Below, piece by piece: positions 5,589-15,916 of a stretch of 25,976 nucleotides of DNA. A model generated the notes under the pieces. The model had not been told where the DNA came from. It worked only from the letters and a program-made list of their open reading frames with translations, and made no database searches. A program made the position numbers and the translations under genes. Each line of letters opens with the position of its first letter. The first letter of the stretch is position 1. This DNA comes from a virus: positions 1 to 25,976 of the IMG/VR virus record IMGVR_UViG_3300030329_001187; one strand, written 5' to 3'.

Positions 5589-5785
5589 TGCTTAATGAAG
5601 TCTATTATTATAGTAAAAATAGGGATGAAGAAATACCAGTATCTGAAATGTCAGATGTGTATGTTAGAAGAGCATTTAAAAAAATGATTTTAAAAGAAAA
5701 AAAAAGACAGGATACTAAGGAAAAAATGAAAGTATTTATTCGTAATGCAATTAGTAATTTAGAAAGGGCTTTAGAAGATAAATGA
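5588..5785 (+). CDS. Small basic hypothetical protein (65 aa)
   Basis: No family recognised. The frame starts on the polymerase stop (TAATG) and its stop overlaps the next ATG. The product has an N-terminal Tyr-rich part (MLNEVYYYSKNRDEE) and a long Lys/Arg-rich helix (AFKKMILKEKKRQDTKEKMK) ending in a Leu-spaced helix. There is no cysteine or membrane segment. Placement just after the polymerase suggests a replication accessory role, but nothing in the sequence proves it. Confidence 0.65.
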   Translation: MLNEVYYYSKNRDEEIPVSEMSDVYVRRAFKKMILKEKKRQDTKEKMKVFIRNAISNLERALEDK

Positions 5786-6447
5786 CAGATTATAAAGATT
5801 ACAAATTAAGTGGTACATTACACGCACCATTTAGTCCTATGTTAATGGAGTTTAAAATTCCACAACCTTATGTGGATTTATTAAATAATTATGGAGATAA
5901 AATATCTAAAAGTGATAAAAAATCTAAGCAATTAGATTGGTCAGATAATCTTGTAGGTAATGTGAAACAAGAACATAAAATTGAAGACCATATATGGCAA
6001 GAAAAACCGAATGAAAATTTACCCTCATTATTTAATTGGATGGGTGCTTGTGTTAATTTGTATGTAAAAACAAAATTAAAACAAAGTGACCAATCAGACA
6101 ATGAAGCGGCTGAAAAAGGTATTAAAAAAGTTGCTATGCATAACAGTTGGCTTGTTAATTCTATAGCAGGAGATTTTAATCCTCCTCATATGCATTATGG
6201 TCAATTATCGGCTGCAGGGTGGTTAAGAATGCCAGAATCTGTAGAAAAAGATGAAGAAAGAGAACACGCAGGGTGGATTGAATTTTTGTATGGTACACCA
6301 CAAATATTTATTGACCCAAAATATTCTGTAAAACCTCATGTGGGACAAATATTTATATTTCCTGCTTGGTTATTACATCAAGTATATCCATTTAGAGGTA
6401 AAGGATTAAGAAGAACTATATCATTTAACGTAAGTGTTGAATTTTAG
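5782..6447 (+). CDS. Putative 2-oxoglutarate/Fe(II)-dependent oxygenase
   Basis: The C-terminal half resembles the small phage and bacterial 2OG-Fe(II) oxygenases of the CHP02466 / 2OG-FeII_Oxy_5 type. The metal site would be H136-x-H138 (NPPHMHYGQLSAAGWLRMPE) and H199 (FIFPAWLLHQVYPF), with R210/R211 just before a final strand (RRTISFNVSVEF) as the likely 2-oxoglutarate contact. The jelly-roll order of HxH, then GxIFIFPxWLxH, then R-S/T-I-S-F-N is intact in 221 residues. Such proteins are frequent in marine phages; the substrate (nucleic acid or protein) is unknown. It is the last gene of the replication operon and is followed directly by a new promoter. Confidence 0.78.
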   Translation: MTDYKDYKLSGTLHAPFSPMLMEFKIPQPYVDLLNNYGDKISKSDKKSKQLDWSDNLVGNVKQEHKIEDHIWQEKPNENLPSLFNWMGACVNLYVKTKLKQSDQSDNEAAEKGIKKVAMHNSWLVNSIAGDFNPPHMHYGQLSAAGWLRMPESVEKDEEREHAGWIEFLYGTPQIFIDPKYSVKPHVGQIFIFPAWLLHQVYPFRGKGLRRTISFNVSVEF

Positions 6448-10567: not shown

Positions 10568-11094
10568 CAAAAACTATTATAAATATAGTGCAAAATGATT
10601 CTGGCGGTACCAATCCAGATACCCACGCACATGAAGATAAAATTTGGGAATTAACTTTTGAAGATAATGATACAACAAATCTAACAAGAATGAAAATGAT
10701 GGAATTGTTGACAAAGGGAACTGTACCTACAAAAACAGTACATTCGTTTAGGAAATGGGAATTAACAACAACACATGGTGCTCATATTAGAACTTGGGTT
10801 ATTGTATATGATGATAAATCACACGTACAATTAACAAATAATGATTTTTATTCGCTGTTATCTAATGGTCATAAAAATAAAGGAGATGAAGTAAAAGTTG
10901 AAGGGGAAAGAGGTGCAGTATCATCTGCTATTGCACAAGCCCAACGAGATGCTGGTGTGCAACTACCTACAAAATCAATAACAACTCCCGAAGAACGAGA
11001 GCAATTAAAAGAATTAAGAGAAGATATAAGGGATAATTATGTTCCTGTCTTTGGTAAAAAAGAAGATAAAAATTTAGAAGAAGAAATTAATTAG
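10564..11094 (+). CDS. Hypothetical protein, last gene of the plus-strand block (176 aa)
   Basis: No family recognised. The first two thirds look beta-rich (KIWELTFEDND, FRKWELTTTHGAHIRTWVIV), and the last third is a charged helix with an EEREQLKELREDIRDNY segment and an acidic end. His residues cluster at HAHEDKIW and THGAHIRTW, but no known metal motif is formed. The gene ends 8 bases inside the opposite-strand gene at 11087, so the two transcription units converge with no space between them and no clear terminator. Confidence 0.7.
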   Translation: MTKTIINIVQNDSGGTNPDTHAHEDKIWELTFEDNDTTNLTRMKMMELLTKGTVPTKTVHSFRKWELTTTHGAHIRTWVIVYDDKSHVQLTNNDFYSLLSNGHKNKGDEVKVEGERGAVSSAIAQAQRDAGVQLPTKSITTPEEREQLKELREDIRDNYVPVFGKKEDKNLEEEIN

Positions 11095-11590
11095 ATAAAG
11101 GATTATTAGATTTTAATTTAATCTCTTCTATTTGAACATCTTGTAATTCATTTTCTTTTTTAACTATAGCAACATCTTTGCTTAGTTGTTCAATGTCTTC
11201 TTCAAGTTCCCAACCATATTCTTCTAGTGTTTGAAGTGATTCAAGAATAGGTTTTGTATCAATAGGTTTAGGTAGCATAGCTATCTGTTCTCTTATTTTA
11301 CCTATCTCTTTGAATACTTTTGTTAAATCAACAGGTTGTATTTTTTCTTCTACAGTTGCAATTCTATCTATTAAATCTACTTTATATTCATTAGCATATA
11401 ACAATACTTCATCAAATTGTTTTTCTAATTCTTTATCTTTACTATGTAATGGCTGTAAATTTACAGGAGGCTCACTTTCTAATGCAGAAAGTCTAGTATT
11501 GAACTCGCCCCATGCATAAAAACCTCCTCCAATAGCTGTTACAGTTCCTATTAATGCCGCATATGTGCTAAGTTTATCCATTATTTTCAT
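11087..11590 (-). CDS. Membrane-anchored coiled-coil protein (167 aa)
   Basis: The product has an N-terminal membrane segment (about residues 8-28, TYAALIGTVTAIGGGFYAWG) followed by about 135 mostly helical, charged residues with long heptad-like runs (EDIEQLSKDVAIVKKENELQ). This single-anchor, coiled-coil layout recurs in the 131-aa protein at 14560-14955. It starts in an ATGA overlap with the end of the acidic-protein gene and is the last gene of the minus-strand block. Spanin inner subunits have this shape, but there is no lipoprotein partner nearby. No family assigned. Confidence 0.75.
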   Translation of the reverse strand: MKIMDKLSTYAALIGTVTAIGGGFYAWGEFNTRLSALESEPPVNLQPLHSKDKELEKQFDEVLLYANEYKVDLIDRIATVEEKIQPVDLTKVFKEIGKIREQIAMLPKPIDTKPILESLQTLEEYGWELEEDIEQLSKDVAIVKKENELQDVQIEEIKLKSNNPLSN

Positions 11591-13470
11591 TGTTTAAGTG
11601 CCTCCAGTTCAGCGATTAGTTTGTTTTTTTTACTATTTATTTCTATTAATTTAACTCTGTGTACTTCCACAGGGTCGTTTTCAGTGTAAGATTTCAAAGA
11701 AGTTCCTACATATATCTCCCCAGAATAGGAAGACAAATCTATTTGTAAAAATAGCCCCATATTTGTTTGTTCATATATATCTTTTGTGGTATAAAATACT
11801 ATATCTGAATACGAATCGAGGCTATTATTCTTAAAAAATAAATCCTCTTTTGATAAGTTTTGAGTTGTTTCTTTTGTAACTTTAGCTATTTGTTTAGCTA
11901 TCTTTTTTAAATTCTGTTTTAATTTTGTTTCTACTTTTGCAACATCTGTAATAGCCCCGTCCTCGGTGTCCACTTGTCCATCTTCCGATTGTATATCATC
12001 TTGCTCTCCACTTTCTTCTGCCGATACATCGGATTCCTCAGTTGTTTCGCTATTGGATTCCTCCTCCTGTGGTTCTTCTTGTTGCTCTGATTCATTACTT
12101 GCTACTTCTGTTTCTTCTTCCATTGGTTCAGCTTCTGACTCAAGCTCCACTGTTTCTTCTTCAGTCTCAATAATCTCTGGTGTGCTTTCTTCATTTGTTG
12201 CGACTTCTTCAAACTCTTCCTCAAACTCTTCAAAAGATTCCGTAGTAGGTTCATCATCAAACTCCTCCTCGGTTATCTCTTCAAAAAATTCCTCGGCTGT
12301 TATGCCTTCATCCTCTAGAAACTCCATGAACTCTTCTTCCATGCCTGTTTCTTCTAAAAATTCAGTAAAGTCCTCCTCAAATTCTTCTGTAAATATTTCC
12401 TCCATCATCTCAAGAGGTGGAGGTTCCATTATATAATCCTCTTCAAAAAATACCTCTTCTATTATAGGCATTTCTTCAAAAGTTTCAAACTCTTCAAACA
12501 TTGGTAGCTCTTCAAAGTCTACCATATCGAAATCTATAGTTTCTAATTCTTCTTCAAAATAAAAATCTTCTTCCCAAGCATAGTCATCTTCCCAAGTATA
12601 CTCTTCTTCTTCCCAAGTATATGTATCATCAAATACTATGTCGTCATTATACCAATCAAAATCTTCTGGTATATCTTCTATTATATCTACAATGTCGTCA
12701 TCAATATCATCAATAACATCTTGTGTGCTGTCATCAATAGGGTCATACTCTGTATTATTATAAGTCATCGTTAAAGATGAACCTAATAAATTTGGCCCTT
12801 GTCTAGATTGATTAGTGTAGTTACTATCTGTACCTAACCAAGACCAATCTACTTTATTACTGCCTACACCTAAGTATATAATTCTATCATTATATTGACC
12901 ACAATTTGCAGTTACACCTGTAGTAGTTGTACCCGGATAGCCATTACAATTACCTTGAAACCCTGTAACATCTGTTCTTGTTTGTGTTGTAGTACTTAAT
13001 ACATTACCACTAGAATCTTTTAATATTATAGTTGTAGTATGCGAATCATTATTACCACCTTTAGATTCACAATTACCTTCTGTACTTTCACAGTTTGCAA
13101 CATCCACATAACTATTTAATGTAACACCATTATCAAGCATTGATTGATTAATAGAATTATTTGTTAATGCTATATCATCTACACTTACTGTTGCTGTACC
13201 AGTAACTTCAAAATCACCACCTACACTATATTTATATCCACAATTAGATTGTGATGTAGAACAAGTAATATCAAATCCATTTATTGTACTACCATTACTT
13301 ACATAACCAGAACCAGAATCTGGATGAATTTGGTCTGTGCTACTAGAACCCCAATCTACCCCATCACCAGAATTAGGAAGTAAATTTCCTGTTGTTATAG
13401 TTTCGCCAAATGCTTTTTCCCATGCAAATAGGAAACTGCAAAGAGCTAATACAGCAATAATGTATTTCAT
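11587..13470 (-). CDS. Exported polyacidic protein of unknown function (627 aa)
   Basis: A signal peptide is clear: MKYIIAVLALCSFLFAWEKA, with cleavage likely after AFG at residue 22. Residues 25-235 are a Ser/Thr/Gly/Asn-rich, probably beta-type domain with six cysteines (C70, C77, C127, C134, C175, C190), well spaced for disulfides. Residues 241-510 are about 46% Asp/Glu by my count, and no Lys, Arg or His occurs between R223 and K512. The first part of this tract is rich in Trp/Tyr/Phe, the second in Ser/Thr/Gln. A basic helix follows (KLKQNLKKIAKQIAKVTKET, about 516-535), then a compact C-terminal domain of about 90 residues. The gene sits between two other exported or membrane proteins. 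I know no characterised homologue. Confidence 0.8.
   Translation of the reverse strand: MKYIIAVLALCSFLFAWEKAFGETITTGNLLPNSGDGVDWGSSSTDQIHPDSGSGYVSNGSTINGFDITCSTSQSNCGYKYSVGGDFEVTGTATVSVDDIALTNNSINQSMLDNGVTLNSYVDVANCESTEGNCESKGGNNDSHTTTIILKDSSGNVLSTTTQTRTDVTGFQGNCNGYPGTTTTGVTANCGQYNDRIIYLGVGSNKVDWSWLGTDSNYTNQSRQGPNLLGSSLTMTYNNTEYDPIDDSTQDVIDDIDDDIVDIIEDIPEDFDWYNDDIVFDDTYTWEEEEYTWEDDYAWEEDFYFEEELETIDFDMVDFEELPMFEEFETFEEMPIIEEVFFEEDYIMEPPPLEMMEEIFTEEFEEDFTEFLEETGMEEEFMEFLEDEGITAEEFFEEITEEEFDDEPTTESFEEFEEEFEEVATNEESTPEIIETEEETVELESEAEPMEEETEVASNESEQQEEPQEEESNSETTEESDVSAEESGEQDDIQSEDGQVDTEDGAITDVAKVETKLKQNLKKIAKQIAKVTKETTQNLSKEDLFFKNNSLDSYSDIVFYTTKDIYEQTNMGLFLQIDLSSYSGEIYVGTSLKSYTENDPVEVHRVKLIEINSKKNKLIAELEALKQ
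11941..12750 (-). repeat. Coding tract for the Glu/Asp-rich low-complexity region
   Basis: This part encodes residues 241-510 of the exported acidic protein. Short motifs recur irregularly: YTWEEEE, YTWEDD and YAWEED near residues 284-302, then FEE/EEF units to about 422, then Glu/Ser/Thr mixtures. On the plus strand the tract reads as a Ser-rich frame, which is only its complement (TCC/TCT/TCA). Such tracts expand and contract readily, so length may vary between related phages. Confidence 0.7.
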
Positions 13471-14261
13471 TATTTGTGTACGTTAATAATTTTTATTTCG
13501 TTTGTTTGTAAATCGGTTTCAATTATAATATTATCAACTTCTTCTTGTTGTTTTAGTGTTTCTAATTTTGCTTTTTCTTCTGCTATTTTTTTAGCAATAG
13601 CTTCCTGTTCTAATCTAAGTCTTTCTGCTTCTTCTTGTCTTGCTATTTCTGCAAGTTCTTCATCAATACGAGACCTGTTTTCCAGTTTTTGTATATACAT
13701 TTCATAATCTGGTCTTTCCAAATCATATTTATTCCATTGGTCTATAGCATCTTTACCAATTTTTCCTTCAAAAGGACATGGTGTACCAGCCATCATCATA
13801 GCTTCAAAAACTCTTTCATCTTGACATAATATAGAAACAGCCGCTACTTTCATTCCATAATCATATAGAACTTTAGATAACTTTATACGTTCACAATTTA
13901 AATCCCTAATATGTTTACCAACAGAAGCACCAAAACCAAGGGTAGAAACGGAGCCACTAACACCCATACTACACACATCTTGAGACATTGAGGAGTAACT
14001 TGGTGAATTTGCTGAGTTGACAGGTACATCTGACCCATTGGTAGTTGTTGTATTAGTTGTTGTTGATGTTGTTGTGTTTGTTTGCCCATCATTATTATTT
14101 GTTGTTGTTGATGTATATCCACCTGTTATTTGAGTATTACTTCCTGAAGAATTTGTCTGGGTATTATCATCATTTGTTGAATCTGCTATTACAGGCTTTG
14201 CCCATACAGCTATTAATATTAATATTGTAAGTAATATAAAATTGTTTCGTACCCATTTCAT
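13470..14261 (-). CDS. Exported protein with Thr/Asn linker, cysteine domain and coiled-coil tail (263 aa)
   Basis: A signal peptide (MKWVRNNFILLTILILIAVW, cleavage likely after VIA at residue 26) is followed by a Thr/Asn/Ser linker (27-95). Next comes a compact domain with C97, C123, C146 and C162 (QDVCSMGVSGSVSTLGF, DLNCERIKLSKVLYDYG, SILCQDERVFEAMMMAGTPC), and then a Glu/Lys/Arg coiled coil (about 185-242). The four cysteines suggest two disulfides in the periplasm or outside the cell. The stop overlaps the start of the acidic-protein gene (TAATG), so the two are probably made together. I have the impression that this cysteine domain recurs in marine phages, without a known function. Confidence 0.78.
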   Translation of the reverse strand: MKWVRNNFILLTILILIAVWAKPVIADSTNDDNTQTNSSGSNTQITGGYTSTTTNNNDGQTNTTTSTTTNTTTTNGSDVPVNSANSPSYSSMSQDVCSMGVSGSVSTLGFGASVGKHIRDLNCERIKLSKVLYDYGMKVAAVSILCQDERVFEAMMMAGTPCPFEGKIGKDAIDQWNKYDLERPDYEMYIQKLENRSRIDEELAEIARQEEAERLRLEQEAIAKKIAEEKAKLETLKQQEEVDNIIIETDLQTNEIKIINVHK

Positions 14262-14573
14262 TTAGTCCCTCTCCCATTTTTCCTTCGCTTTAAGTGTCCA
14301 CCTTTCAAATGCCTCTTTACTTATATTTTTTTTAACCATTTTAGCACCTTCGGGTACGTTATTATATAATGCAATTACTTCACCATCTTTAATTTCTACA
14401 ATAGCAGGGCTACAAAATGCATCTTTAGTATAATCTGTTTGTTGTTTTTTTAATATTCTAACTTCTTTCATACAGGAAGATAAGGATTCCATAGGAATAT
14501 ACTGTGTCATTTGATGTTTTTGGTCGTTCATATTACCAAACATGAACATTACAATTATACTAATAACTTCCAT
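14262..14573 (-). CDS. Small membrane or exported protein (103 aa)
   Basis: The N-terminus is short and hydrophobic (MEVISIIVMFMFGNMND), more an uncleaved anchor than a clean signal peptide. The remainder has two cysteines, C34 (LSSCMKEVRIL) and C54 (DAFCSPAIVEIKDGEV), and a Lys-rich helical end (FERWTLKAKEKWERD). The start lies 14 bases inside the previous gene and the stop abuts the next ATG. No family recognised. It belongs to the envelope-directed run of small genes. Confidence 0.68.
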   Translation of the reverse strand: MEVISIIVMFMFGNMNDQKHQMTQYIPMESLSSCMKEVRILKKQQTDYTKDAFCSPAIVEIKDGEVIALYNNVPEGAKMVKKNISKEAFERWTLKAKEKWERD

Positions 14574-14955
14574 TAGATTCTCTAATTTTATCTTTTAGCT
14601 TCTCCACATCCCCTAATAATCGTTCTATATCCTGCTGTGCTCTCTTAATATTCACGGTATTTGACATCATACTCTCCATATCAGACTGCATAGATTCAAG
14701 CTGAGAACTCATAAATTCTATCAATAAATCCTGTTGAGCATCTGCCGGGAGCGACCCCAATTCTCCTCTTGGCCATTTGATTCTAAACTCTGTATTCTTC
14801 GTAAGGTCAGCTTCTGATAAAGTGACACGAGTTTCCACGGAATTTAGCCTCTCGATAATCCCAAAGTAGGCCCACGTTCCTACAGCTACCAACGTGATGA
14901 GGGAAACAACCGTTTTAAGCGGCATCTGTACATTGGTGGATTCTGATACCTTCAT
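14560..14955 (-). CDS. Membrane-anchored coiled-coil protein, GC-rich for this genome (131 aa)
   Basis: A short polar head is followed by one transmembrane helix (about 13-33, LKTVVSLITLVAVGTWAYFG), then IIERLNSVETRVTLSEADLT, a distinctive segment TEFRIKWPRGELGSLPADA, and a long coiled coil to the end. By hand count this gene is about 42% GC against roughly a third for the neighbouring gene, and its codons differ too, as if acquired more recently or under different selection. From memory, close relatives with the same WPRGELGSLPADA core occur in other marine phages, including cyanophage-like ones, without assigned function. The periplasmic coiled coil could span to the peptidoglycan. Confidence 0.78.
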   Translation of the reverse strand: MKVSESTNVQMPLKTVVSLITLVAVGTWAYFGIIERLNSVETRVTLSEADLTKNTEFRIKWPRGELGSLPADAQQDLLIEFMSSQLESMQSDMESMMSNTVNIKRAQQDIERLLGDVEKLKDKIRESNGSY

Positions 14956-15389
14956 TATTTTTTTACCAGACTACCACCAAAATACAATCCAATAATTGAA
15001 GCCATTAAATGTGTATCCATCGGTGTTATTACAACACCTGCATATTGTCTATCAACAAGCATTTCTTTCTGTTCAATTAAGAACAAGAAACCTCTACTAA
15101 ATTCTGTCCATGTTAAAAAGACACTTGTATCAAAAAATACAGGTACAAGTTTAGGCCAGACTATAATAAAGAACACTGCTGTTAATGCAATTATTCTTCT
15201 TGTAAATTGAAACCCTTTATTTTCATATTTTCTAGCTTTATCTATTTCTTCCATTTGAAATTTGCCACGAGCAAGTAACATTTTTTGGGATTCTTGTTTT
15301 GCTTTTATGCTTTGACCCCAAATAGTCATAACACCGCCTAGTACACTAGACCCTAACATTGTAATCATTTCTACTGGTAATCCAAACAT
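14955..15389 (-). CDS. Multi-pass membrane protein (144 aa), possible holin-like role
   Basis: Three hydrophobic segments are visible: about 5-25 (VEMITMLGSSVLGGVMTIWG), 62-87 (ending FFIIVWPKLVPVFF), and 126-141 (HLMASIIGLYFGGSLVKK). Between the first two lies a charged helical stretch (AKQESQKMLLARGKFQMEEI). A small three-segment membrane protein among other membrane genes at the end of the late block could be a holin, but size, spacing and charge are not decisive. Its stop overlaps the next start (TAATG). Confidence 0.7.
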   Translation of the reverse strand: MFGLPVEMITMLGSSVLGGVMTIWGQSIKAKQESQKMLLARGKFQMEEIDKARKYENKGFQFTRRIIALTAVFFIIVWPKLVPVFFDTSVFLTWTEFSRGFLFLIEQKEMLVDRQYAGVVITPMDTHLMASIIGLYFGGSLVKK

Positions 15390-15721: not shown

Positions 15722-15916
15722 CTAGTTAGTTATTTTCATAAAAGCCCAAATAGCTCCAAGTATACCACCTATAGCTAAAAAAACTTTTATTCCTCCAACT
15801 CCCATGTTGGATGTTTTATTTAAATCTCTTATTTGTTTTTGCATAATATTAATATCGTCTCTGATGTATCTAACATCTGTTTTGAGTTCAGCTATTTCTT
15901 TCTCCCATTCAGCCAT
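15722..15916 (-). CDS. XhlA-like membrane protein (64 aa)
   Basis: The sequence MAEWEKEIAELKTDVRYIRD is followed by a coiled coil (DINIMQKQIRDLNK) and a C-terminal membrane helix (about 43-61, GIKVFLAIGGILGAIWAFMK). This order and length match the XhlA family, first described with the Bacillus PBSX lysis genes, where it cooperates with a holin in lysis. Its start shares a base with the stop of the 1390-aa gene (TAATG). It gives the best evidence that the following run of membrane genes includes lysis functions, although no endolysin is visible. Confidence 0.72.
   Translation of the reverse strand: MAEWEKEIAELKTDVRYIRDDINIMQKQIRDLNKTSNMGVGGIKVFLAIGGILGAIWAFMKITN

Follow-up and report, generated by a model that had tools for sequence, protein, structure and literature searches.

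The virus fragment analysed here (IMG/VR record IMGVR_UViG_3300030329_001187, 25,976 nucleotides; hereafter the window) encodes on its minus strand an exported polyacidic protein of 627 aa (gene B; 11587..13470). B sits between two further genes, A and C, with which it forms a cassette, A-B-C. No description of this cassette was found in the library and databases searched, and it appears to be undescribed. The general kind is already known: phages encode accessory proteins that are exported and act at the envelope. From the sequences, the co-location of the three genes, their translational overlap in the window and the export-type N-termini of A and B are well supported. The same holds for the membrane helix, coiled coil and NPL end of C, for the lectin-like jelly-roll front of B and, by comparison between phages, for the replacement of this front domain by unrelated ones while A and C were kept. 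Tentatively, and with a probability somewhat below one half, we read A-B-C as an envelope complex in which B would present a variable front domain on a spacer.

The window was deposited as a linear virus fragment of 26 kb. Its DNA polymerase showed the best full-length matches to HTVC033P (47.5%), followed by CRP phages and HMO-2011; judged from this polymerase, the phage would be of HMO-2011 type. HTVC033P has been placed in a subgroup of HMO-2011 type that probably consists of SAR11 phages (PMC9038755). Given this placement and the closest polymerase, SAR11 is the likely host. The plus strand also carries a 2OG-Fe(II) oxygenase gene (5782-6447; PHROG 81), a common auxiliary gene in marine phages, and, in the early region away from the lysis genes, a possible lipoprotein of 72 aa (1739-1957; LNGC, TTG start).

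Gene B and its basic-free acidic tract

The open reading frame of B starts with ATG and has more than 100 homologues, which are up to 84% identical and come from other metagenome assemblies. Between R223 and K512, 288 residues (224-511; 11938..12801, minus strand) are free of Lys, Arg and His, as an earlier note on this DNA had claimed. Its count of 123 Asp/Glu among the 270 residues of the polyacidic tract proper (241-510) was reproduced as well (88 Glu, 35 Asp), and 34 aromatic residues are interspersed. Across the 23 other genes of the window, Lys, Arg and His make up 14.1% of the residues. With this baseline, the chance of a basic-free run of 288 residues is about 1e-19 under independence, and it is about 3e-12 when computed from B's own composition outside the tract. 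The next longest basic-free run among these 23 genes spans 93 aa and lies in the adjacent gene A. Close relatives of B have 2-6 basic residues in the aligned region and keep 100-126 acidic ones. Since relatives carry a few basic residues, strict absence was dropped as a conserved feature; in window B it is the extreme case of a family trait.

Among B relatives, dN/dS was 0.30-0.41 for the tract versus 0.11-0.22 for the N-terminal domain. When 1372 Asp/Glu positions of the window protein were aligned across 12 relatives, 1231 stayed Asp/Glu and 19 changed to Lys. These substitution patterns indicate that purifying selection acts on the tract. The earlier note had listed translation of a mis-assembled low-complexity region as a possible refutation; this, like a non-coding repeat, was ruled out by the independent assemblies, the purifying selection and the weak tandem-repeat content of B.

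The AF2 model of B is of low confidence overall (mean pLDDT of 58.5, pTM of 0.41), and most of the tract is disordered in it. Within the tract, model and alignment point to a conserved acidic helical element at residues 353-404 (12259..12414, minus strand; FTEFLEETGMEEEFMEFLEDEGITAEEFFEEI), with helices at 353-375, 378-387 and 392-404 (pLDDT about 70-77); E401-E403 are nearly invariant among B homologues. A similar stretch was seen by eye in Mosig_00201 and in L158. The remaining acidic stretch was mostly modelled with low confidence.

Residues 1-22 (13405..13470, minus strand) resemble a signal peptide, with MK at the start, a hydrophobic core and AFG followed by E. The leader was recognised by inspection, in agreement with the claimed export of B; it coincides with a model helix at 2-20 and has no lipobox. 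The next segment (residues 24-238; 12757..13401, minus strand) is the proposed six-cysteine domain (C70, C77, C127, C134, C175 and C190); C11 falls inside the leader. Its pLDDT is mostly 75-96 outside the loops 34-45, 130-133 and 172-189. In Foldseek, it matched the Fbs1 sugar-binding domain 2e31 (E 6.9e-6, probability 1.00) and also CBM4 and MAM domains, which have the jelly-roll fold in common with it (E 7e-6 to 1e-3), with identities of 6-15% among the best matches. By the model, the domain has a carbohydrate-binding jelly-roll (beta-sandwich) fold; sugar binding itself is putative. The Pfam family CBM_4_9 matched two B homologues weakly (E 0.009-0.02, below the gathering cut-off), while no gathering-level CBM4/9 match was obtained in the B family and not even a weak one for window B. 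Neither Pfam nor PHROG has a family for window B, and PDB sequence searches with the B and A profiles returned coiled-coil or histone-like noise alone.

The front domain varies across phages and includes several jelly-roll-like forms and Cys-rich repeats. Two homologues (L046:7965-9770 and L077:278-2059) have the same acidic tract and C-terminus as B with a different, cysteine-poor front domain, and their sequences indicate that front-domain exchange occurs within the B family. The C-terminal domain (residues 512-627; 11590..11937, minus strand) is recognisable by conserved columns and is matched in Mosig. The earlier note described it as structured; the model shows it structured only in part, with a helix at its end (600-626; pLDDT 84-91 over 601-620). 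Homology between the C-termini of the window family and the wider family is weak, the best E value among about 70 sequences being 0.002.

Partner genes and spread of the cassette

In the window, A lies upstream of B and C downstream, with start/stop overlaps at A-B (TAATG) and B-C (ATGA). Gene A (13470..14261, minus strand) would encode an exported partner, for which profile, alignment and model show a T/N-rich segment, a domain with four conserved cysteines and a long C-terminal helix; in several distant phages, A has a C-terminal hydrophobic anchor. The PHROG 20531 profile matched window A (E 4e-13) and also the A proteins of distant, very different phages; no function is assigned to this entry. 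A link between A, B and C is not recorded in the library, and neither Pfam nor PHROG has a family for B or C. No Pfam match reached gathering level for the three proteins or for those late neighbours that were scanned, and Foldseek with the A model gave no structural match. Gene C (11087..11590, minus strand; 167 aa) has an N-terminal membrane helix and a coiled coil and ends with an NPL motif (11096..11104, minus strand) that is nearly universal in the C family. Frequent neighbours on the same strand are a membrane-anchored coiled-coil gene (14560..14955; PHROG 20984, by profile and synteny) and a small holin-like gene with multiple TM segments (14955..15389), recognised by inspection, with a homologue beside A in S28C10 (L084). 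A 64-aa protein with a coiled coil and a C-terminal TM segment (15722..15916, minus strand) is a possible holin partner. The neighbours of B are exported or membrane coiled-coil proteins, in line with the coiled-coil partners named in the earlier note. The note also proposed that the tract could hold these partners by charge. For C, simple attraction of this kind is disfavoured, because C is itself acidic in this phage (net -7.2 per 100 aa).

The order A-B-C was kept in nearly all untruncated B loci, and likewise in the podoviruses HTVC033P, Baldr, HTVC202P, S28C10 and HTVC023P and in the myovirus Mosig; the cassette thus extends to podoviruses unrelated to the window phage. HTVC033P gp45 and BAQ94057 of uvMED S28C10 share B's slot, leader, jelly roll, acidic tract and C-terminal domain, but identity is about 27-33% in the best-aligned parts and their tract has basic residues. 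Relatives of this type are annotated as 'putative carbohydrate binding domain containing protein'. An A-seeded scan yielded at least 597 confirmed matches to gene A. The sample defined by A comprised 80 loci kept, of which 66 had a complete B slot. The B slot showed an export-type N-terminus in 65/66 of these, and a C ending with NPL was present within 2.5 kb in 57/66, compared with 8/2135 background ORFs. Matches to gene A filed under bacterial genomes traced to one single-cell assembly and to bins of marine metagenomes; they look like phage contigs, and a place of A in bacterial genomes proper was rejected.

Several further observations concern individual loci. An A-family protein of 531 aa (L173:1419-3014) has a basic-free stretch of 342 residues with few acidic residues (4% Asp/Glu overall), and the related A of L175 has a long repeat region rich in Asn and Thr that may be a beta-solenoid. 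In L200 (7374-9092), L231 (7415-7909) and L168 (2970-3823), additional small exported genes follow B and, where C was identified, precede it; they encode a 'GNV(A)SKC...GVYG' family, a 'PxYPxxKPSY' family and an EF-hand-like protein with two TM segments. The first two families had no Pfam match. CRP-207 gp73 (L089:3292-3873) and CRP-810 gp51 (L090:6162-6584) are annotated as (putative) lysozyme, yet group with the C family. No lysozyme domain was detected in CRP-207 gp73 by Pfam scan and it matches the C family, while CRP-810 gp51 joins it by profile and NPL end alone; both labels are probably misannotations.

Envelope complex or lysis machinery

If A-B-C forms an envelope complex, B would be the variable middle member of three phage-encoded proteins. 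C in the inner membrane and the exported A, which is membrane-anchored in some phages, may hold the C-terminal helices of B at the periplasmic face. The mostly disordered acidic stretch of about 290 residues would then act as an extended spacer of roughly 15 nm from end to end, whose acidity may keep B soluble and extended in a high-salt envelope and which would carry the sugar-binding-like domain towards the peptidoglycan, the outer membrane or the cell surface. Most likely, the complex would serve as an accessory that alters the envelope or surface of an infected cell, and not as an enzyme or metal trap. Candidate effects are the masking of receptors from other phages and adhesion to sugars or to nearby cells; the exact role is a guess. 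In large phages, the neighbours of the cassette are auxiliary genes and not lysis genes, as expected for an accessory trait. The low confidence of the AF2 model, the missing structural match for A and the weak homology of B's C-terminus with the wider family count against the complex, and so do the endolysin and holin genes beside the cassette in several podoviruses, which point to lysis.

Lysis is the main rival, although we consider it unlikely. Here, C would be similar to an inner-membrane spanin, and B and A would weaken the periplasm and outer membrane or form a bridge across them late in infection. The cassette lies in a late-strand operon. Directly after C, HTVC023P and several related contigs have an M15 peptidase gene; in others, a Phage_lysozyme-type or Amidase_2 gene is nearby, and GTA_holin_3TM lies beside A in Mosig. 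A known endolysin type was present within 3 kb downstream in 24/110 loci, but most loci had none in this range; a holin-like gene was present within 1.5 kb upstream in 29/94 loci. The linkage to lysis genes is real in podoviruses but weak overall. Judged by sequence, C would carry the i-spanin plan (N-terminal inner-membrane helix and periplasmic coiled coil), and its predicted topology and its size resemble those of i-spanins (PMC6139136). Like Rz/Rz1-type spanins (PMC6139136), it is predicted to combine an inner-membrane helix with a coiled coil, and it has lysis-gene neighbours in some podoviruses. In contrast to these spanins, the cassette has no lipoprotein partner, and B is 5-10 times larger and has a folded lectin-like domain and an acidic tract. 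The lipobox pattern [LVI][ASTVI][GAS]C occurred in 1/147 A, 1/146 B and 0/139 C proteins, and no late minus-strand lipoprotein was recognised in the window. Lacking the lipobox that defines o-spanins on A or B, A-B-C was rejected as a two-component spanin. Moreover, lysis proteins are usually small and do not need a variable lectin-like domain, and the auxiliary-gene setting in large phages also speaks against lysis.

Acidity of the tract and meaning of the cassette

The B slot was strongly acidic in 20/66 A-defined loci and not acidic in 46/66. In acidic-B loci, A, C and the front domain of B were also more acidic (Mann-Whitney p of 5e-9, 5e-8 and 1e-10) and the other genes slightly so (p of 3e-4), in a comparison that treats loci as independent and ignores shared ancestry. 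Of 132 acidic basic-free runs, 128 belonged to B and a further two to a gene adjoining a distant A; most of these loci were gathered by B, with a bias due to search patterns that included tract peptides. In ctXG6705, a phage from a freshwater spring, the B slot carries a linker of mixed Lys, Glu and Pro. Contigs whose numbers we take to be marine tend towards the acidic group and presumed freshwater ones towards the neutral group; papers yielded nothing on the habitats of the IMG contigs. Since B is acidic in 20/66 loci and A, C and the front domain are co-acidic, the data suggest a lineage-linked shift of the whole exported cassette, or one linked to habitat or salinity, with habitat being our assumption. 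Acidity would then probably reflect a salt-tuned spacer and not a conserved function of the cassette.

The earlier note had offered the acidity as a functional device, and in this form the tract itself would be the effector, through binding of Ca/Mg, mimicry of nucleic acid or sequestration of cationic peptides in the periplasm. Its extreme and conserved acidity under purifying selection and the conserved helical element are in its favour. However, the 46 exported proteins without an acidic tract in the same slot speak against it, and the tracts of cultured pelagiphages contain lysines. Absence of the tract from homologues, which the note had accepted as counter-evidence, was found in the wider slot and not among close homologues. 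In seawater, Mg and Ca reach tens of millimolar and the ionic strength is high; with divalents in excess and charge screened, divalent capture or long-range electrostatic binding is an unlikely purpose. We regard an effector role of the tract as improbable.

Equally improbable is that B, despite its leader, is a virion or tail-associated adhesin: jelly-roll front domains are common in tail proteins and the gene sits in the late region near internal virion proteins, but virions assemble in the cytoplasm, whereas A and B consistently have an export-type N-terminus and C a membrane helix. A literature search for proteomics of HMO-2011-type virions returned nothing relevant. Pelagiphage curli (type VIII secretion) genes likewise encode exported surface proteins of SAR11 phages and have moved between podo- and myoviruses (PMC9599517), but a relation to A-B-C was rejected, as the genes are different, the cassette has no described secretion pore and no CsgG, CsgF or CsgA Pfam domain reached gathering level in the cassette or the late neighbours scanned.

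The envelope reading can be extended, as a doubtful possibility, to an undescribed envelope-spanning display system of podo- and myoviruses, marine and probably freshwater, in which a variable recognition domain, borne on a salinity-tuned spacer, would alter the contacts of infected cells with other phages or other cells. The charge differences among cassettes offer a simple test of salinity tuning in exported phage proteins. Many aquatic phages carry the cassette, among them some of the most abundant SAR11 phages, and most of it has no family entry. If infected cells have their envelope altered by A-B-C, the consequences for superinfection, lysis or contact between cells would be ocean-wide.
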